Positions 1 through 64,000 of a stretch of 64,000 bases of DNA are shown here, piece after piece (positions within the stretch are counted from its first letter, which is position 1; each line of letters starts with the position of its first letter). The notes below the pieces were generated by a model that saw nothing but the letters and a program-made list of their open reading frames with translations, was not told where the DNA came from and did not search any database. This stretch comes from Ulva prolifera (lineage: Eukaryota > Chlorophyta > Ulvophyceae > Ulvales > Ulvaceae). The stretch lies in assembly GCA_023078555.1 (NCBI GenBank), contig CM041200.1:9695356-9759355 (forward strand). Reading direction: 5' to 3'. A program made the position numbers and the translations under genes.

Positions 1-9542
<9,542 letters not shown>

Positions 9543-16077: not shown

Positions 16078-18067
16078 AGACGGAGCGTGGGCCGCATCCT
16101 CGTAGGGCCCCCCGGGCTGCGCAACGACACCTCCGGCCGCCTCCACGCGGTTCTCGCGCAGCCGCTGTGCAGCAGCGACGACCCCCTCAAGCCCGCGCAG
16201 GCCTCGAGGCGCTCCGCGGTTGCGGCGGTCCTGCAGCACCTGTGCTGTGGCGGCGGCGCGGAGCGGCCCGACACAGGCGACGGCTCAGCGCGGGCGGAAG
16301 GTACCTCGACCGTGGATAGCAGTGCGGACGAGGCAGTGGAGGCGGTGGAGGACGAGGATGGTGGCGCAGCGTCCACCGTGGGGGATGATGCAGCCCATAG
16401 CCACCATGGTCGTCCCGCCAGCTCATGTGACGCTGGGGGCAGCGGGTCGGCTGGCCCCCCGGCTATTCAGGGACCGCAACACCGGCCACGGGCCTGGGTG
16501 GCGTTCCTCTCGCCGCACGACTTTGCTGCAGGTGGAGCTGCTGTGACCAATACATCTCAGGCCTGTGCCACCCTCAGGTGGTGTCCTCACAGGCGATTGT
16601 GGCACACACCGAGGTCACTGATGTGCTGCCGTCCCCTGAACATGTAGGGCAAGGCCGCTTCTCCGGCCATGGGTACCATGTTTCGTCAGGGAAGGTGGAG
16701 GTGCGTGGCGGTGCTGTGCGGGGGTGTCTGGTTGCGGCCAACCTGGAGAGCTGGTACGCAGCGGACAAGCCCTCAGTGCTAAAGTTCGAAGAGACTCTTT
16801 TCGAAGACAAATGGGCAGGGGTGCACGTCCGCGGGGGCGGGCACGTGGATGCAATCCGATGTGACTTCCGGATGCTTGGCTCAAGAGACAGCGTGTTGTC
16901 TAGGCATGCTGCCAGTCTTGCGGCCGGGCAGGAAGAAGCCAAGTTTAACGGAGCAGACCTGCACGCGATTCAGCTTCAGCCTGCTGCTTACGGTGCCAGC
17001 CTGCAGGAGTGCTCATTCCTGGGATACATTGTGGACATTCAGAGCGAATGTGATGGCACAGTCGATGTCAAAGGGTGCACATTTCTGGCGGGCCGACAAG
17101 GCCTGGCGCGGATTAGGCTGGTAGGCCCTGTGTTTGTTGATGGTTGCACATTTGAAAGTGGTTGCATGGGCATTTGTGTAGTCTTAAAGGATGGTGTGCG
17201 GCGGGTGGTGCAGGGGTGCCAATTTCTGGCCGGGGTTGATACTGCCGTCATCGTGGAGCGGGCAGTCTGGGCCCCTGACAGCAAGGGAGGGATTGCCATA
17301 ATGAGATGTACATTCACTGGCTGTGGCACTGCAGTCCGTGCCATATCCGGGGGGTCAGCGTATGTCGAGCATTGCGACATCACGTGCGCGGAATACGGCA
17401 TATTCGGCGGTACCCCTCCAGTGATGCGTCACCTGACTCGCCCGACAGTAGAACGCGTGAGGGTGTATGACTGCAAGGTGTCAGCACGAAGGGCGGTGAT
17501 CCTGTGCGGGCGGGTGAAGGCGGAGCTGGAACGATGTGTGATCGAGTCATGCGAGTTTGGCGTGTACGCTGTACATAGCTCGACAACATGCATCCGAGAA
17601 ACATCGATCTCAAAGTGCAGTCGCGAAGGCGTCAACGTCGGGAATGACGAGCTGGCAGATGCAAAGTGCGGTGCATGTGGCAGGGATGAAGCATCGCTGA
17701 TGGCGGCTGCATGGGCTGCTGCAACGGGGCAGGGGGGCAGTGCATGCTCTGAGGTGCCGCAGTGCGTGCACGACGGCGCCGCTGCCGCGGTGGAGCTGCA
17801 GGGGGTAGACTTGTCGCGGTGCGGCACGGGGTTGCTAGTGTTGCAAGGGGGAAGGTAAGTGCGAGGCGGGTGCGGGCAGCTGACTGCGCGGCAGCATTCA
17901 CTGTTCTGCGCCTGGCTCATGTCAACTGTTTTGAGGGTTGCAGTGTAGAGGGGTGCGGAGGGGGGGCGATGGCGTGGTGGATGCTGGGTCCAGAGGAGGG
18001 CTTCCGGGTGGAGGCAGCGGAGGTTGTCATGCCCGGCATCGATGTGATCGAGGCCAGTGCTCTGTGA
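16078..18067 (+). CDS. Right-handed parallel beta-helix repeat protein
   Basis: The main exon, open from about 16528 to 17854, encodes many short turns with the pattern of PbH1/F-box-associated beta-helix proteins, for example VEVRGGAVRGCLVAANLES, VHVRGGGHVDAIRCDF, VDVKGCTFLAGRQGL, AYVEHCDITCAEYGIFGG and AELERCVIESCEFGVYAVHS. The second exon is 17944-18067: donor GTAAGT at 17855, 89-bp intron, phase 2, then SVEGCGGGAMAWWMLGPEEG to TGA at 18065. The 5' end is unclear. A second open frame, 16078-16570, encodes acidic, Ala-rich residues and is out of frame with the main exon, so an intron or start remains to be placed. Such proteins often mediate protein binding (FBXO11 type), but no F-box is certain here. 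Confidence 0.7.
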
Positions 18068-29205: not shown

Positions 29206-40803
<11,598 letters not shown>

Positions 40804-53821: not shown

Positions 53822-56800
53822 ATGCCGCCCGATCCACAAGCGGCCGCGGGTGCAGCCACGTGCGCGCCAACCAGCGAGGCAGGAGATCGGCAGGGGCCAG
53901 AGACGGTACCTGCGCCACAGGATGAGCCCGCAGCCATGCCTCAGCAGGCAGACCAAGCCGCTCACGTCATCGAACGGAACGATGATCCTTGGAGACTCAA
54001 ACGTGTGTTTCGTCTGCAATGGTCTCCCATTACCAGGGAGACCATTGCTACCAGTTGACGTGCACCATACATGCCAGCTTTAAGGACAATACAGCTGGCA
54101 ATGCTTGTGTGCAGCTACGGTACACGTGAATGTGTGCAGTGATAGACCATTCTTGTTTTTCTCCTGAGCGGCTTGCATTATGTGTGCAGTCAGAGCTGTC
54201 TTCGCCACCGCCACAACTTCGATGCTGGCACTTGGGTTGTCGTCGTACCAGATTCTCCAATGCTTGACGAACCCTGCCAGCGAGGAGTGCACAGCTCTTG
54301 TCGGCCATGTTCTGATTTTACTGGGAAGCTCCGGGCTGCTTTTGACAACCTCTTCAAGCTCCAACCTGCTCAGAGGCCTCCTCAGACGCAATAGCGCATC
54401 CGCGGATCCAGGCGCGGCAGTAAATGTATCTCAGAGAGAGATACCACAAAGTTCAGATGATGCACAGGTGTGAGCCTCGCTGCTTTGCCCCCCGGTAGCC
54501 ACCTGATGACTGTAGAGAGGTGCCCTGCTCCCAGGTCCACTTCCCTGGTGTACTGCAGCGCTGTGCACTTGGCAGGCTCGCCATCCACAACCCGTGAACA
54601 CGCAGAATCTGATCCAGATGGAGACGTGTTGTGCAGGGCGAGAAGCATGTGCGATGCAATGCTGCAAGCGACACTGCTGGCCAGGAACCGCCTAGGGCAG
54701 TCCCGTCCACCGACACCAAGCCACAATCAAGGTCGGAGGGCAGGGACAACACACTGGATTCTGCAGGGCCAAGCCTGCACGGACAGGAGGGGCGCACAGT
54801 TCCAGCCGGTACGGAGCCCCCACGCGCCGCCATTTCGAACTTGAATCACACGATCTCAACATCGGCAAACAAGTTCTGCCTTACGGCAGTGCTGTCTTTT
54901 GTGTCCATGCCACAGCACCTCTGTTGACATCGCTGCACCCCGGACCGCAGAGGTACTAGATGTCCGCCTGAATCGCCGTGTACCGTCATGCAGGGTCGCA
55001 GAAGCGCAGGCTGGAATCAACAGCAGATCAGGAGAGTTCGGAGCAAAATGCATCCTCGAAAAAGCAGGCTCGCTCCCTAGCGCCTGCGGTGGAAGCGACA
55101 AAGATGCGCCCCTGCACTGTGGCTGCCAGCTCCCAGACCGTTGATCCGGTCTTCGCCCCCACCTTTCCGTCCGCCCCGACACAGCTGCCAGGGATTGTCA
55201 CGCGCTATCGGCGAAGGAACTCTGCGCCCGCCATGCCGTTGCCTGACACAGCCAGGTCGACAGCGCCCGGCGCTGTCCTGATTTGCTCCGCAGATGCTCT
55301 TGGCGAACAGGGTGCTGCAGCAACAGCAGCAGGCAGCCTCCTCGCGACCGGCGCTGTCGCACTTGGCGCCACAGAGTCTGGTGGCGAGCAGAGCGGTTCC
55401 GCGGCAGCAGCAGGCAGCCTTCTCGCGCCCGGCGCTGCCGCACTTGGTGCCACAGAGTCTGGTGGCGAGCAGAGCGGTGCCGCGGCATCAGCAGACAGCC
55501 ACTTTCCGCTCAGTGCTGTCGCACTTGGCGCCACAGAGTCTGGTGGCGAGCAGAGCGGTGCCGCGGCAGCAGCAGGCAGCCTTCTTGCGCCCGTCACTGT
55601 CCCACTTGGCGCCGCAGAGGTTGGCGGCGAGCAGAGCGGTGCTGCGGCAGCAGCAGGCAGCCTTCTTGCGCCCGGCGCTGTCGCACTTGGCGCCACAGAG
55701 TCTGGTGCCGAGCAGAGCGGTGCCGCGGCAGCTGCGGGCAGCCTTCTCGCGCCCGGCGCTGTCGCACTTGGCGCCACAGAGTCTGGTGGCGAGCAGAGCG
55801 GTTCCGCGGCAGCTGCGGGCAGCCGTCTCGCACCCGGCGCTGTCGCACTTGGCGCCACAGAGTCTGGTGCCGAGCAGAGCGGTGCCGCGGTAGCAGCAGG
55901 CAGCCTCCTCGCGACTGGCGCTGTTGTACTTGGCGCCACAGAGTCTGGTGGCGAGCAGAGCGGTGCCGCGGCAGCAGCAGGCAGCCTCCTCGCGACTGGC
56001 GCTGTTGTACTTGGCGCCACAGAGTCTGGTGGCGAGCAGAGCGGTGCCGCGGCATCAGCAGGCAGCCTTCTCGCGCCCGGCGCTGTCGCACTTGGCGCCA
56101 CAGAGTCTGGTGGCGAGCAGAGCGGTGCCGCGGTAGCAGCAGGCAGCCTCCTCGCGACTGGCGCTGTTGTACTTGGCGCCACAGAGTCTGGTGCCGAGCA
56201 GAGCGGTGCCGCGGCAGCAGCAGGCAGCCTTCTTGCGCCCGTCACTGTCCCACTTGGCGCCGCAGAGGTTGGCGGCGAGCAGAGCGGTGCTGCGGCAGCA
56301 GCAGGCAGCCTTCTTGCGCCCGGCGCTGTCGCACTTGGCGCCACAGAGTCTGGTGCCGAGCAGAGCGGTGCCGCGGCAGCTGCGGGCAGCCTTCTCGCGC
56401 CCGGCGCTGTCGCACTTGGCGCCACAGAGTCTGGTGGCGAGCAGAGCGGTTCCGCGGCAGCTGCGGGCAGCCGTCTCGCACCCGGCGCTGTCGCACTTGG
56501 CGCCACAGAGTCTGGTGCCGAGCAGAGCGGTGCCGCGGCAGCAGCAGGCAGCCTTCTCGCGCCCGGTGCTGTCGCACTTGGCGCCACAGAGTCTGGTGCC
56601 GAGCAGAGCGGTGCTGCGGCAGCAGCAGGCAGCCTTCTCGCGCCCGGCGCTGTCGCACTTGGCGCCACAGAGTCTGGTGCCGAGCAGAGCGGTGCCGCGG
56701 CAGCAGCAGGCAGCCTTCTCGCGCCCGGCGCTGCCGCACTTGGTGCCACAGAGTCTGGTGGCGAGCAGAGCGGTGCCGCGGCATCAGCAGGCAGCCTTCT

Positions 56801-58787
56801 TGCGCCCGGCGCTGTCGCACTTGGCGCCACAGAGTCTGGTGCCGAGCAGAGCGGTGCCGCGGCAGCTGCGGGCAGCCTTCTCGCGCCCGGCGCTGTCGCA
56901 CTTGGCGCCACAGAGTCTGGTGGCGAGCAGAGCGGTTCCGCGGCAGCTGCGGGCAGCCGTCTCGCACCCGGCGCTGTCGCACTTGGCGCCACAGAGTCTG
57001 GTGCCGAGCAGAGCGGTGCCGCGGCAGCAGCAGGCAGCCTTCTCGCGCCCGGCGCTGTCGCACTTGGCGCCACAGAGTCTGGTGCCGAGCAGAGCGGTGC
57101 TGCGGCAGCAGCAGGCAGCCTTCTCGCGCCCGGCGCTGTCGCACTTGGCGCCACAGAGTCTGGTGCCGAGCAGAGCGGTGCCGCGGCAGCAGCAGGCAGC
57201 CTTCTCGCGCCCGGCGCTGTCGCACTTGGCGCCACAGAGTCTGGTGGCGAGCAGAGCGGTGCCGCGGTAGCAGCAGGCAGCCTCCTCGCGACTGGCGCTG
57301 TTGTACTTGGCGCCACAGAGTCTGGTGGCGAGCAGAGCGGTGCCGCGGCAGCAGCAGGCAGCCTTCTCGCGCCCGGCGCTGTCGCACTTGGCGCCACAGA
57401 GTCTGGTGGCGAGCAGAGCGGTGCCGCGGCATCAGCAGGCAGCCTTCTCGCGCCCGGCGCTGTCGCACTTGGCGCCACAGAGTCTGGTGGCGAGCAGAGC
57501 GGTGCCGCGGTAGCAGCAGGCAGCCTCCTCGCGACTGGCGCTGTTGTACTTGGCGCCACAGAGTCTGGTGGCGAGCAGAGCGGTGCCGCGGCAGCAGCAG
57601 GCAGCCTCCTCGCGACTGGCGCTGTTGTACTTGGCGCCACAGAGTCTGGTGGCGAGCAGAGCGGTGCCGCGGCAGCAGCAGGCAGCCTCCTCGCGACTGG
57701 CGCTGTTGTACTTGGCGCCACAGAGTCTGGTGGCGAGCAGAGCGGTGCCGCGGCAGCAGCATGCAGCCTCCTCGCGCCCGGCGCTGTCGTGCTCGGCGCC
57801 GCAGAGGCTAGCAATCAGCAGAGCGCCACCGCGGCAGCAGCAGACAGCCTCCTCGCGCCCGGCGCTGCTGCACTCGGCGCCGCACCGGCCGATGGAGAGC
57901 AGAGCGCTACCGCGGCAGCAGCATGCAGCCACCCCGTGCAAGGCAACCTGGACTCAGGTGTATCTTTACGACAGCATGAAGTCGGTTTTGCGAGGCGCGA
58001 GTGGGCAGAACTGATTTACGCATGCGGCGCTTGTGTGGGCGCGGAGCGCTTACGAAACCGTCAAAGCTGGTCGACCATTACCTCCGCATTCTATGTGGAA
58101 ACTACGAATGTCAAGGGCCACAGTGCGTCCAAGCGCAGGGAGAAACCCCATGTACGTATCCTTTTGAAGTCTGAGCGTTCATCACTGAGGTGTGAGTGTG
58201 GTAAGTCTGTGTGCGTGAATTGACCTGCATCATCTGTCGTCACCGCTAGGACACTCATTCAGCACCCAGAAATGTGATTCGTTGTAGCCAAGATCACACA
58301 AACACTGTTCTGGGTGCATGAGCCTCACTTCTGTGTGCAGGTTCTGTATCCATCTCACCAGGCCTTCATCGATATCAGGAAAGCACTAAGCAAGGGGAAC
58401 AATGCCAAATTTGGCCATCCAAATCCTGTGCGAATTACTGTGGAGGGCAAGGCCATGGCAGCATACCGCCAATACAAGGCCATTATCAGCCTAGATGTAG
58501 CTTGTGAACTGATGAATGCATCCATCACCACGGCCACAGATGTTCCGACAGATTTGTTCATTGAGTATGTTTGCACAGTCACCCAGTGGCGTTTGGGATG
58601 GGTTGGTGGGTACAGTCCCGAATCTAATGAGGGCAAGAAGCTCTCCCATTCTGCAAAGAGCCACGGGGAATTTGCAAAAAGAGTAGCAGGCCTTTTCGGG
58701 GACAGACTGCCCGCCGAGTTGCCCTTGCCTCGGGGCGGTGAGGGGGCCTCCTGGTTGTCCGCTGCAATGTGGCAGTATGTGGGGTAG
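53822..58787 (+). CDS. Repeat-expanded membrane protein, unknown family
   Basis: Five exons with matching phases: 53822-54002, 54190-54467, 54637-54808, 54994-58200, 58288-58787, giving 1445 aa. The ATG at 53822 opens MPPDPQAAAGAATCAPTSEA. Exon 2 encodes two hydrophobic stretches, TSMLALGLSSYQILQCL and ALVGHVLILLGSSGLLLTT, either side of a short Cys-containing loop, so a membrane hairpin is likely. Exon 4 starts with a basic patch (GSQKRRLES, SSKKQARS) and then carries 32 units of a 27-residue repeat. After the array come GFARREWAELIYACGACVGA and LKSERSSLRCEC. Exon 5 reads KITQTLFWVHEPHFCVQVLY, then PSHQAFIDIRKALSKG and GEFAKRVAGLFGDRLPAELP. The exon 4 donor is GTAAGT at 58201 and the exon 5 acceptor ttgtag, both phase 1. 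No enzymatic motif recognised. Confidence 0.65.
55332..57923 (+). repeat. 81-bp coding tandem array, 32 units
   Basis: Each unit encodes 27 residues close to GSLLAPGAVALGATESGAEQ followed by SGAAAAA. Subtypes recur in order: the unit with VTVPLGAAEVGG is 4th and 12th, and the GSRLAP unit is 7th, 15th and 21st. Blocks of several units have therefore been copied. The last two units (ASNQQSATA; PADGEQSATA) are diverged, as expected at an array edge. Confidence 0.95.
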
Positions 58788-59300: not shown

Positions 59301-61234
59301 GCCCTCGACAAGCCAGACCGCCGTGCTCAGCGGTGCAAGCTCTTGGAAGACCTCGCGACACTGAATGACGGCAGGGGAGATGATATTTTAGTACCATTGT
59401 CGATGTCCGAGGTCGAGGCGTGGCGGACATGCGTTGAGCTAGTCAAGACCGCTGTCGACAGGGGCAAATCACCTTTGGCATCGGAGGGCTACATGCTGAT
59501 AGATGCAATGAAGGTGTGAATTATGATGCTGTGTGATCACAGCTCAATGCAACATGGTTTGCTGCAAAAGAGCCCCACAAAGGCATTCTGGTCGGTCAGC
59601 TGCTGCTTGCGCCTACTCGCGCTCGCGAGCCTCTACGGCCGGATGTTATCAGCCAGATACGTGAAAAGTGCATCATGTTACCCTCTCCCTTTGATGCATG
59701 TTTCTGGCCAAAAGCATGGAAAAGGCATTGGTCGATCGCGATGCATCGTGAGATTCCGCTTGATTGATCGCTCCACCAGTCCTGCTATGGCTCTGATACT
59801 GAGACGTCACATTGCAATCCTACTTTCTGTATCCTCTTTCGTTGTGCGTGGGATGCTATTTGCAAAGTCCACTGCCTTTTGCCTGCCTTGCTGAGCTGCA
59901 AGCAGGGGAGCAACCATCAGCTCCAGAAAAGAGTATCTTGGGCCGCACTTCGTACGACCTGCAAGTCCAATGACTACAGACGCGTTTGTCATCACGGCTG
60001 AGCGGGCAAGCGGTGTGACGTCCAGGCCGCAGACTATCTCCAAGACTCTCAAACAGCAGCTGCCATGTCCCGGTCTCTGTTGTTGGCGATGCTGGGCCCT
60101 CAGATTGTCCCCTGGAGACCACTGTCAAAGCTGGAGCGTGCAAGTTCAGCCTGGGTGCGGCCTTCTGCTCTGTGAAGCCTTCGGAGTGTCTACCCATGTC
60201 TAGGCAAACAGTTTCTGATCACTGCCGTCCTGACCACAGCATCATCATGAGACTGAAGCCCGAGTACGCCTGTGTGTGCAAAGCCGCAATACATGGGCAA
60301 CTGCTTCTATCTCGACATCATGCGCTTCGAGGCTCACCTGCTTGTGAGTGACAGCGCGTCCCTCCCCCAGGTGCATCAGCTGTCTGGGCTCACGACGACT
60401 GTCACTGCGCCCACGAAGGGTCCAGAGTCCAGCGACCTGCTTGTTCATGCTGTCAAGCAGATAACGGCACTGAAGCGCCTCCATGTCGGCGTGGATACAC
60501 ATGATCCTGATGTTTACGAGGCTGCTGTGCAGGTGCTGCGGCAGCTGTGCTCTGCTACTGAGCTTGTGGCGCCTACCCGCCTCGAGCTCCCCGACAAGCT
60601 TCTGTGGGGGCGAGACCTTTTTTCGCGGTACACTGCTCGACTGGATGTTCAGATAGGAACCTCCGGCGCCTACCCGTCGGATCGCCTTGTGTTTAGACGG
60701 CGCTCTCGATGGCGGTTACGTGAAGTATCACTCCCGTAAGCAGCGTGGCCGAGCCATGCTAGGCCTTCTTGCCAACCTTGTAGCACTGCAATCGCTGAGC
60801 CTTCGTCACAACGACCTCAGGGACGACGCGCCGATGCCCATCGCACCCTTCATCTCAGCCCTTACTGCGCTGTCCATGGCAATTGCGCGACCCACATTGG
60901 CGTTACCGCCGAGCTCCTTGTTGCGGCCAGAGCCGCTGACATAGGCACAGAGGGGCTGCGGCAGCTCGATGTCGGCAGCAACCTCGTTGGACTGGAGCGC
61001 GCGGCTGAGGTGGCCGCCCTTCTGCGGCAGCTGATGACCTTGGAGGCGCTGAATCTGCGGAGCGTGTTTGACGGGCCGGGGGGCCTGCAGGAGCTGGTGC
61101 CTGCCTTGGAGGCGCCGCCGCATCTCGCACGCCTGCGGCTGCCTGTGACTGGTGACATCTTTCACTCTGGTGACACCGCGACTGTGGATGCTGAGCCGCT
61201 GCAGACCGGCCTCAAGCACATGCAGATGGACTGA
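59301..61234 (+). pseudogene. Leucine-rich-repeat protein with N-terminal BTB-like segment, frameshifted
   Basis: Exon 59301-59513 (acceptor gcgacatag, phase 0 at both ends) reads LLEDLATLNDGRGDDILVPL, then MSEVEAWRTCVELVKTAVDR and GYMLIDAMK, resembling the end of a BTB/Skp1-like fold (tentative). Exon 60371-60688 reads SSDLLVHAVKQITALKRLHV. A 55-bp intron follows, then exon 60744 onward: LLANLVALQSLSLRHNDLRD, a clear LRR. Near 60870 the frame must shift to continue into VTAELLVAARAADIGTEGLR, QLDVGSNLVGLERAAEVAAL and LRQLMTLEALNLRSVFDGPG, ending at TGA 61232. The frameshift makes it a pseudogene unless it is a sequencing error. An exon between 59514 and 60370 may be missing from this model. 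Confidence 0.55.
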
Positions 61235-61625
61235 GCAAAGGTGTGTGCGAGACTTGAGTTGTGCGCGTTGAGCACTGACCTGGAACGTTTTCCCACAGAC
61301 ACGCATTCACTTGCCATCAGTGCTCACCCCCGTCGGAATTGTACATGAACATACAGGCTCCAGGGCTCCGTAAGTCAGCAATGCCGCACTTGACTTGCTT
61401 GACTTGCGGCGTAGGTGTGGGGCGCTGGATGGCGTGTGGGAGATCACCACTGCTAGGAAGGTCCTTTTGCGACTCCGCTGCTGGCCACTGACGACTCTGT
61501 GGCAATGGGGGCTTCGTCCTGGCTACACAGCTAGCGCCGCATGCGCTCTGCCAGTGGATATTGACTGATTGCGGGGGCAGGGGCAGCATTGCGGCTGACA
61601 CGCATCGCTGTGTGCGTGCCGTGCT

Positions 61626-63392
61626 GTGTACTCCAACAGTGGCAGCCTGGCCATCATGCATGCATTGCTGTGCTGGCTCCAACAGCTGCATGTGAGGGGC
61701 GTGCCCAGCAGGCCGGCCGCCGCCACACCACTCAGGGTGCAGGTGCTCGGAAGCATCCCAGAGATTGACCATAGTTTGAGGCTCGTGGTGAGGGATGGTG
61801 CTGGACAACTTCAGGTTCCACACACACTAAAAAGCAGGCTTATTTCCGGGTCCGCCCCACTGCCGGTGGCGTGTGTAGATGACGCCACGTCCATGTGTGA
61901 CGTGCAGTCCGTTGGCCAATCGCAATCACAGGTCTGTGTATTTTGTGCACGACTGAATACGTTTCTATCTCAGAGATACATGGGCAGCCAAATCCGCAGT
62001 GCCAAATACATTGTTACTGCACTGTGCCGGCATTGTGACGGCTTGTTCACGAGAAGATGTGCTAGAGACGTAAGCATGAACCTGCTGTCAGCGGGGTCTA
62101 CACGGTCTGACGTTCAGACCTGCCCTCATACTGCCCAGCTCCTCGCTTACGTTCCCATTCTTCTCGCAACAATATGTTGCAATGCAGCGTGCGCGTGTGG
62201 AGCACCTGTCGCTGCGGCATTTCGGGCGGTCGAAGCCCGACCTACGCAAAGCCGGGGCCCCGGACTGACCCAGGCCGAGCAGGAGGCAGCACTTTCCGGT
62301 GCTGTGCGCGGCCACATTGCCGATGAGCGTGCGCTGCTGCGCGGCGCCCACACCGTGGCGAACATCGACCGGGCGCACCGAGAGTTCAGCGACTTTCTGC
62401 TACAGTGGCGCACCAACGCCGTCGGCCAATGGGCCACATGCACGCACGAGCTGGTGTTGGTCTACCTCCGCAATGCCGTGTCTCAACGCACCGGTCGGGA
62501 CGGTGCCGAGCTCACCGCCTCCACGTTGAGGCAGCTAGTGTCGAACCTCAGCATGTGCTTCTGCACGATCGGCCGCAGCGAAACATGGGATGAGTTAGAC
62601 CGCAGAGGGAATCCCGCTGCTAGCAGCCTGGTGCGCAACCACGTTGAGATGGCCGAGCGGCGCCAGCACGCGAACGGCGTGTGCGAGCGCAGCGCTGTGC
62701 CGATGACCCTAGGAGTTGTGGGACAGTTGTTGCGCCATCTAGACGCCTGCGAGACCGCAGCGGGTGCGCAGCCTTCTGTCCTGGAACAGTTGCGTTGTGC
62801 CCGAGACGCTGCTTTATTAGCTCTGCTGTGGCACAGCGGCCGGCGCGGTGCGTATCTGTTGCGGCTGGGCTGGCACCATGTGTACGCACAGGGCACTCGT
62901 CCCGTGGACAGTGCCCTGATTCTCAGTTATTGGCGGGAGGGGTTCGGCGCAGCGGAGCTGCCGAGCGGCATACTGCTCACCCTTGACGAGCTGAAGAATG
63001 CGAAGCGGCTTCGACCCCTATCCGTAGAGGTGACCACAGAGCCTATCGCTACGGCAAAGTTATTTGTGGTCAGGCGCTTACAGCATTTGCTCTATCTGCA
63101 GCGTCGCCACGGCAAGCCCGAGGGGCAGACCGTTTTCTGTAGTCATGCAACCGTCAATCCGCCGCGAACAGCTCTGACCACATCCGGATTCGCTAACCGT
63201 TTTGACCGCTTTGCTACCGCTGCTCTGCCCAGCTCGGGGCCCCAGGCGTACACTGTGCATGGACTGCGCCGCGGTCGCATGCAGCATGAGCGAGAGGCTG
63301 GCGGCTCTGTGCCGGACATCATGCAGCTAGCTGGGTTGAGCACTGAATCTGTAGCCCACATGTATTTGGATCCGGGACGTCATCTAGCTTAG
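61626..63392 (+). CDS. Tyrosine recombinase of a DIRS/kangaroo-like retroelement
   Basis: Open frame of up to 588 residues; the first true ATG is at 61656, and the mature start could lie further in. From about residue 215 it has the layout of a phage-integrase-type recombinase: a helical core-binding part (LTQAEQEAALSGAVRGHIAD; HREFSDFLLQWRTNAVGQW), then the catalytic part with HSGRRGAYLLRLGWHHV (Arg 406/407), LKNAKRLRPLSVEV (Lys), HGLRRGRMQHE (H545, R548) and VAHMYLDPGRH (Tyr 580). The full R-K-HxxR-Y set is present, so the protein may be active. Cys pairs near the N-terminus (VCVFCARL; LCRHCDGL) could bind zinc. It would integrate circular element DNA. It faces the minus-strand RT/RNase H frame, with stops about 130 bp apart. 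Confidence 0.8.
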   Translation: MYSNSGSLAIMHALLCWLQQLHVRGVPSRPAAATPLRVQVLGSIPEIDHSLRLVVRDGAGQLQVPHTLKSRLISGSAPLPVACVDDATSMCDVQSVGQSQSQVCVFCARLNTFLSQRYMGSQIRSAKYIVTALCRHCDGLFTRRCARDVSMNLLSAGSTRSDVQTCPHTAQLLAYVPILLATICCNAACACGAPVAAAFRAVEARPTQSRGPGLTQAEQEAALSGAVRGHIADERALLRGAHTVANIDRAHREFSDFLLQWRTNAVGQWATCTHELVLVYLRNAVSQRTGRDGAELTASTLRQLVSNLSMCFCTIGRSETWDELDRRGNPAASSLVRNHVEMAERRQHANGVCERSAVPMTLGVVGQLLRHLDACETAAGAQPSVLEQLRCARDAALLALLWHSGRRGAYLLRLGWHHVYAQGTRPVDSALILSYWREGFGAAELPSGILLTLDELKNAKRLRPLSVEVTTEPIATAKLFVVRRLQHLLYLQRRHGKPEGQTVFCSHATVNPPRTALTTSGFANRFDRFATAALPSSGPQAYTVHGLRRGRMQHEREAGGSVPDIMQLAGLSTESVAHMYLDPGRHLA

Positions 63393-63522
63393 CAGGGCTG
63401 CGGTGGTAAGGATGTGCTCACCCTGCTCTCTTGCAGAATATGCAGTCGCCCAGGCCAGGGGCCATGCAGTGCTTATGTGCATAGCGTGTGTCAATTGTAA
63501 TCCACCTACATCCTTACACCCA

Positions 63523-64000
63523 TTAGGCCCCAGGCCATCGGACGTGGACTGCCTGCATGGGCACCTTCCATCCACCCACAGCGGTCTGCGCCGGCACTCG
63601 GCTAGTAGGCTGAACCATCACACTGTGTGGTCCCGTCAGCTGCTTTTGGTGCACGATCGGCAATCTGTGCAGCAATGTGGTGACCTCCGCCGACACTCGC
63701 CACGGCAGTACCACTATCGCCCGCGCGCGCTTTGTTTCCACTTTCCGCAGCACATTCAACAGCATAGACACCGGCGGGAACAGCCACAACAGCGGATGTC
63801 CAGGTTTGTGCTGACCAGCCCGGTGGGGCCACGCATCCCATGTCTGCGCCATGCCGTCCACCGCAACACACCGCCCATCGTACATGTCACTGAAATACAC
63901 GTCGCACATGTGCGCCTGCGCACTGGCCAGGCAATCGACGGCCGGCGTTCCCATGTCAGGAGACAGTCGCTCCTGTGCCATGCGCTTTGAGAAGCGCCAG
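63523..64000 (-). CDS. C-terminal end of reverse transcriptase/RNase H polyprotein, cut by window
   Basis: Minus-strand frame open to the window edge and ending at TAA 63523-63525. It reads FSKRMAQERLSPDMGTPAVD, CLASAQAHMCDVYFSDMYDG, VAVDGMAQTWDAW, LLWLFPPVSMLLNVLRKVE and RARAIVVLPWRVSAEVTTLL. The order D..AS..N/Q..C..YFS, AVD...Q.W, FPP...L..VL.K, A..V.P.W is the usual tail of RNase H/post-RNase H regions in DIRS-type and related retroelements. The RT core lies beyond base 64000. With the facing recombinase it marks one mobile element. Confidence 0.7.
   Translation of the reverse strand, partial: WRFSKRMAQERLSPDMGTPAVDCLASAQAHMCDVYFSDMYDGRCVAVDGMAQTWDAWPHRAGQHKPGHPLLWLFPPVSMLLNVLRKVETKRARAIVVLPWRVSAEVTTLLHRLPIVHQKQLTGPHSVMVQPTSRVPAQTAVGGWKVPMQAVHVRWPGA

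Follow-up and report, generated by a model that had tools for sequence, protein, structure and literature searches.

A very probable PAT-type retrotransposon whose recombinase and reverse transcriptase genes face each other, and its relatives in the same genome

The window, a stretch of 64,000 nucleotides, is the end of contig C5 in an assembly of 88.9 Mb and 44 contigs. The contig stops at base 64000, which cuts off the element copy lying there. In the ORF listing of the window, a plus-strand ORF at 61626–63392 (588 aa) meets a minus-strand ORF at 63523–63999, with the stop at 63523, end to end. The distance between the two stops, given as about 130 bp in a sequence-only reading of this DNA, is exactly 130 bp (63393–63522). 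The same reading let the element begin at 61626. Comparison of the copies moved this boundary to 62008, where the element opens with ACATTG, and codons 1–127 of the plus-strand ORF are flank, outside the element. The features at this end of the window are as follows.

61626–62007, no strand: flanking DNA, read as the start of the tyrosine recombinase (YR) ORF; six of eight near-full matches start near query base 372
62008–62136, plus strand: repeat A, 129 bp, in the A2 position adjoining the YR gene; left end of the window copy
62182–62261, plus strand: 5' portion of the YR gene, in a different frame from the remainder (DNA alignment of nine copies)
62262–63392, plus strand: main part of the tyrosine recombinase, with the catalytic residues and the stop (profile matches, invariant residues, dN/dS)
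63393–63522, no strand: spacer between both stops, 130 bp
63496–63500, plus strand: TGTAA, candidate polyadenylation signal of the YR mRNA (in 8/8 near-full copies aligned)
63514–63518, minus strand: TGTAA, candidate polyadenylation signal of the RT mRNA (in 8/8 near-full copies aligned)
63523–64000, minus strand: C-terminal portion of the RT/RNase H polyprotein, beyond RNase H, in MT-like position; runs off the contig

The remainder of the window holds other features. Exons of the largest subunit of RNA polymerase were recognized on the minus strand at 382–6927 (RNA_pol_Rpb1_5, E 8e-25; RNA_pol_Rpb1_2, E 8e-13), and an ORF at 16431–17855 matched a right-handed beta-helix (E 3e-11). A 144-bp tandem repeat of 18 copies at 36188–38818 has several open frames and lies in the most GC-rich 2-kb block (72%). 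An 81-bp tandem repeat of 32 copies with 92% matches occupies 55324–57930; both of its strands have several open frames, one of them a plus-strand frame of 1083 aa, and it gave no Pfam match. Just left of the element, leucine-rich-repeat-like peptides were read by eye in short frames at 60272–61240.

A search of the assembly with the 2375-bp query yielded eight near-full matches at 95–100% identity, one of which was the window itself. The contig end is duplicated at G000:C8:5994000-5997344 with 98.8% identity over 3.3 kb, flank included, and the C8 copy thus carries the left flank of the window copy as part of the duplication. The sequence flanking the C8 copy on the right recurs at C2:3827991. 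The left end of the near-full copies is ACATTG. At the right end they read GTGAAGA, and the two bases after it are AA or AG for most copies and CG for those on C8 and C2. In an alignment of nine copies, a 4-bp deletion near 62259 was common to the window and C8 copies, and the start ATG of the YR at 62182 and the catalytic frame at 62262–63392 are therefore in different frames. Because the window copy has one A repeat without A1-x-B1, and its YR is frameshifted, it is unlikely to work by itself.

In the orientation of the window, a full copy consists of A1 (129 bp), x (365 bp), B1 (247 bp), A2, the YR gene in forward direction, the spacer, the MT-like, RNase H and RT regions in reverse direction, and B2. 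In L012, A1 starts at 1028, B1 ends at 1768, A2 starts at 1771 and B2 ends at 7671. The sequence-only reading had advised looking for split or inverted terminal repeats, and the full copies do have split direct repeats of the form A1-x-B1A2-y-B2, which in the sense of the RT gene becomes A1-y-B1A2-x-B2 with an inverted YR. A self-comparison of L010 (blastn, E 1e-10) revealed direct repeats and no inverted terminal repeats. A1, B1 and A2 were all present at five loci (L012, L013, L014/15, L016 and L017), while L011 has B1A2 and no A1. Several of these copies are damaged: B1 is interrupted in L014, B2 is partly lost in L016, and L017 is without its right part. A1 and A2 showed 0 differences over 128 bp in four of the five copies; in L017 they differ at 29 positions when compared ungapped and match at 126/133 with gaps. 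B1 is identical to B2 in L012 and L013. The repeats were read in families 1 and 2, and family 2 has the same topology with an A of about 93 bp and a B of about 189 bp.

The YR frame is open over 438 aa in four of the eight near-full copies (L011, L012, L013 and L014). R406/407, H545, R548 and Y580 are present in the YR of the window (position in the window ORF = position in L012 + 184) and were invariant in seven YRs aligned from three families. The sequence-only reading had all catalytic residues preserved. This held for the residues just named; the catalytic Lys is not conserved in one alignment column of the seven YRs, although each family has a Lys in the stretch between. In many YRs, His or Trp directly follows the G of the C-terminal box; the YRs aligned here have Leu or Met at this position. 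The YR frame of L012 matched a PHROG integrase family with an E value of 3.7e-7, and the YR stretch of the window matched Pfam Phage_integrase with an E value of 0.0076, below the cut-off. The structure prediction of the YR had a mean pLDDT of 42.6, which was too poor for a fold search. A PDB profile search found nothing matching the element proteins, and three scans of viral contigs found no relatives.

The minus-strand ORF had been taken as the tail of an RT/RNase H gene. It is indeed the C-terminal part of that polyprotein, but the 158 residues in the window lie after RNase H and are neither RT nor RNase H itself. This stretch is 91% identical to L013 and 31–34% identical to families 2 and 3. 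We call it MT-like by its position and its residue pattern; no notable profile was found for it in Pfam, PHROGs or PDB, and the best match outside RNase H was an unnamed PHROG (E 0.32). RNase H was recognized by its motif, read by eye, while RT_RNaseH_2 gave only E 0.19, below the cut-off. The structure prediction of the RNase H and MT-like frame (mean pLDDT 39.0) was again too poor for a fold search. RT itself was read in family 1 copies and in L041. The RT core that the sequence-only reading expected beyond the contig end could be aligned across eight copies and has the motif [L/M]VDD in them, and L035, the only copy open in the RT core, matched RVT_1 with an E value of 4.1e-8, above the Pfam cut-off. 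The other seven of the eight copies share two in-frame stops in the core, and the RT for their mobility was therefore probably supplied from elsewhere, so that they probably moved with it. An intron at the stops was considered and dropped, since one of the eight copies has no stop there and has the same length.

To look at integration, the flanks of 17 insertions were joined and searched for empty sites. Sites spanning the join were found for one of the 17, L022, whose joined flanks matched three paralogous sites at 75–80% identity, gapless at the join. L023 lies inside a tandem unit, whose other, intact copy reads through. At these two insertions with empty-site evidence, no target site duplication was seen. 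The sole sign of a site preference was an A two bases before ACATTG in 13 of 17 left flanks, counted by eye.

Besides the full copies, solo A-x-B copies occur at 14 loci (L018–L031), six of them at 93–97% identity and eight older. Their left ends are identical to ACATTG or have one or two changes, except for L030, which is without the left end; L024 and L027 are duplicates with flanks in common, and L023 and L031 are interrupted. Other copies begin at A2 without x (the window and C8 copies, L035 and L037). The full, solo and A2-start copies together fit recombination at a B-A junction and the two ends. The solo copies could instead form a non-autonomous family that moves on the YR of the full elements, rather than being leftovers of recombination. 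At least as many of them as of full copies were found, and their identities span 75–97%; isolated AB repeats of the Ngaro elements of Cafeteria, in the portion of that report available, are possible products of recombination (PMC8547959), and we consider the non-autonomous family to have slightly less than an even chance.

These elements were compared with the known groups of YR retrotransposons. DIRS1-like elements have inverted terminal repeats and an internal complementary region, unlike the direct repeats of L010. In Ngaro elements the YR is co-oriented with the RT, while it is reversed at the 17 paired loci here. The Ngaro elements of Cafeteria resemble the present ones in repeats of the form A1-[ORFs]-B1A2B2 and in isolated AB repeats, as far as the available portion of the report goes (PMC8547959), but Ngaro elements are without MT (PMC4157794) and the elements here have an MT-like region. 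PAT-like elements have split direct repeats, and in some of them, by the accessible part of the source, the YR is inverted (PMC3266345). Of the features of this group, a YR, an RT (in L035), split direct repeats (in full copies) and insertion with no target duplication were all found. TOC3 and Pat1-like elements of the PAT group likewise have split direct repeats, RT and YR; in TOC3 the direction of the YR is unlike that of kangaroo, and so not reversed, whereas it is reversed here (PMC4157794).

The closest comparisons are with kangaroo of Volvox carteri and an unnamed PAT element of Daphnia pulex. Kangaroo, the element named in the sequence-only reading, shares the inverted YR and the split direct repeats (PMC4157794; PMC3266345, as far as accessible), and also the green algal host, which is suspected for the elements here. 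These likenesses would favour an element of the strict Volvox type. Kangaroo, however, is described with its internal repeats between MT and YR (PMC4157794), whereas the B1A2 pair of families 1 and 2 is on the far side of the YR; this difference is one of description, not of sequence. A strict kangaroo is accordingly unlikely, and the kangaroo likeness is kept for the inverted YR and not for the place of the internal repeats. The Daphnia element, so far as the partly seen source describes it, has an inverted YR with internal repeats adjoining the 3' terminal repeat (PMC4157794), which is the layout of families 1 and 2. Its host is an animal, and it is likened by described layout only. In a limited literature search, this placement of the repeats was described for the Daphnia element only. 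The head-on layout has counterparts in Volvox and Daphnia and is a variant of that known kind. We therefore read the window end as very probably a decayed copy of a PAT-type retrotransposon, in the DIRS order, with an inverted YR facing the RT gene.

The repeats might also be read as a tandem, in which a 743-bp x unit and a 5.9-kb y unit were joined by site-specific insertion, with no split direct repeat as such. The solo x units at 14 loci with the same ends, and the y units that start with no x before them, at the window/C8 site, L035 and L037, agree with this. We nevertheless hold it to be quite improbable, since x is followed by y at all five loci with A1, B1 and A2, in different flanks, and also in family 2, and since the identity of A1 with A2 in four of five copies and of B1 with B2 in L012 and L013 is as expected if one unit was copied.

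The PAT-type reading was further supported by the recurrence of the layout in other genomic copies, which the sequence-only reading had suggested looking for. Of 45 YR rows, 38 were classified, and the other seven are further pieces of, or lie within, entered loci (two 5' pieces in the window and C8 copies, C3:9112438, C7:3526813, C7:3526491, C7:3526352 and C7:3525897). Likewise, 29 of 38 MT rows were entered and the other nine are second pieces of entered loci. Nineteen YR matches had a convergent MT match within 3 kb, 18 had none, and one had a same-strand MT match. The 19 matches represent 17 loci, the window included, because two loci yield two pieces each. No co-oriented YR/RT element was seen among the classified loci. 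Eleven of the 17 loci belong to family 1 or its older relatives, and the other six, which are more remote, include L041 and L042 (family 2) and L039, L040 and L043 (family 3), whose YRs are 33–35% identical to that of family 1. L039, L040 and L043 form a third convergent family, in which L039 and L040 have an open YR frame and L043 a broken one. The distance from the YR match to the MT match was 137–142 bp in the eight near-full copies and 162 bp in L036; the gap between the stops was 17 bp in L041 and L042 and 111–311 bp in L039, L040 and L043. Since the layout occurs at 17 loci in three families, the head-on arrangement is real, old in this genome and more than chance. That the two genes are chance neighbours, either two unrelated genes or two adjacent elements, is hardly credible: in the window copy the YR frame is interrupted and the contig ends within the RT gene, but the same order and orientation, the ends and the repeats are common to the copies, and the MT match of the sole same-strand pair already faces, 162 bp away, the YR of a neighbouring element.

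The YR parts of L012 and L036 are about 80% identical in DNA. The dN/dS between them, computed by skipping the stop codons of L036, was 0.12 for the YR, with 1.48 and 2.62 in the other two frames, and 0.39 for the 342-aa RNase H and MT-like frame, with 1.25 and 1.16 in the other frames. These values indicate that both of the facing genes were under purifying selection while the two lineages diverged. The RT, the split direct repeats, the recurring layout and the purifying selection all speak for a retroelement of the DIRS order in which the YR and RT genes converge.

The spacer carries TGTAA on both strands in 8/8 near-full copies. Of 6387 overlapping 130-bp tiles in the window, 11 had both signals within 18 bp, the tiles of this site included. 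Among eight other loci, L036 and L039 have TGTAA on the plus strand only, L044, L041 and L042 on the minus strand only, and L040 and L043 on both (some just inside the MT frame); L035 has both, split by an insertion. The double TGTAA thus holds firmly for family 1 but does not extend to all loci. In Chlamydomonas, UGUAA serves as the main polyadenylation signal (PMC4025486), and it occurs only in chlorophytes that branched late (PMC1868727), as far as the accessible parts of these two sources go. This signal and the likeness to algal PAT elements are what points to a chlorophyte, probably a green alga, as the host. The assembly had no match to PF00016, the RuBisCO large chain, sought as a plastid gene of the host. 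The presence of TGTAA on both spacer strands favours the proposal that the two genes would be expressed from opposite sides. Starting from the observed layout, repeats, clean ends and past selection, we infer the following course. RNA from the B2 side would be reverse transcribed, a DNA circle with a B-A junction would form, and the YR would recombine this junction into short target sites with no target duplication. The two mRNAs would end against each other in the spacer at the TGTAA signals.

Family 2 includes a subfamily without RT. Five RT-less copies with both ends were found, two on C3 and one each on C1, C5 and C7, with the anatomy A1-x-B1A2, YR, a common interior and B2, and their flanks differ. 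The RT-less elements with open YR frames are L038, L041, L046, L056 and G000:C3:10809405-10815908. In the interiors read in whole or in part (L038, L046, L041 and L045), RT was not found, and a remnant of MT matching over 24–67 residues still faces the YR; the remaining two RT-less copies were classed from their interiors, which are 98% and 88% identical in DNA. Copies in which the two genes are apart, which the sequence-only reading would have held against a single element, thus occur as RT-less YR copies, but the four read keep their MT remnant on the opposite strand. The YR is open over 398 aa in all five RT-less copies, whereas both of the family 2 YRs adjoining a full MT-like frame hold a stop. 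The pN/pS of four RT-less YRs was 0.10–0.20 (one-sided binomial p 1.8e-4 to 6.4e-10, in six pairs that are non-independent).

The relation of the two kinds was examined by comparison of L042 with L038. Over 1.9 kb, beginning at A1 and ending some 50 bp short of the YR stop, the two share 98.5% identity; past this point no DNA match was found, and the MT stretches are 37% identical in protein. In family 2 the A1-x-B1A2-YR half is thus joined, near the YR stop, to one of two kinds of half. The full-type half holds RNase H and an MT-like region, and RT in one of two copies (L041), while the part of L042 that was examined showed no RT; the RT-less half has a strongly diverged MT remnant. In a YR tree of seven copies the two kinds are intermingled, at low support (32–48, one node 96); L042 is labelled RTplus there, but RT was observed in L041 alone. 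From this mixing, the halves were probably exchanged between elements, and the selection on the YR cannot surely be assigned to the RT-less lineage.

The RT-less elements share with Cryptons a YR with no RT, but Cryptons, according to the part of the source available, are without long direct repeats (PMC3212892), and the RT-less elements keep split direct repeats. A Crypton is not the preferred reading, as A1 equals A2 over 93–94 bp in all three copies tested. A private one-base change present in both A1 and A2 of one RT-less copy suggests that its A repeats may have been copied by reverse transcription, an indication drawn from this single change. Because the RT-less form lies at five sites with an open and selected YR and identical A repeats, it probably uses the RT of other elements. 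More tentatively, and with somewhat more to be said against it than for it, the facing halves may be exchangeable modules, and the RT-less form living on the RT of other elements may represent a passage from a retrotransposon to a recombinase-only element. A limited and largely open-access literature search met no RT-less PAT element with an intact YR.

The occurrence of three families in one genome marks a YR facing the RT polyprotein as a stable arrangement and not an accident. Solo units, RT-less relatives and clean empty sites together make the circle-and-recombinase model of PAT elements directly testable, and in the same genome the origin of recombinase-only elements from retrotransposons becomes directly testable as well.
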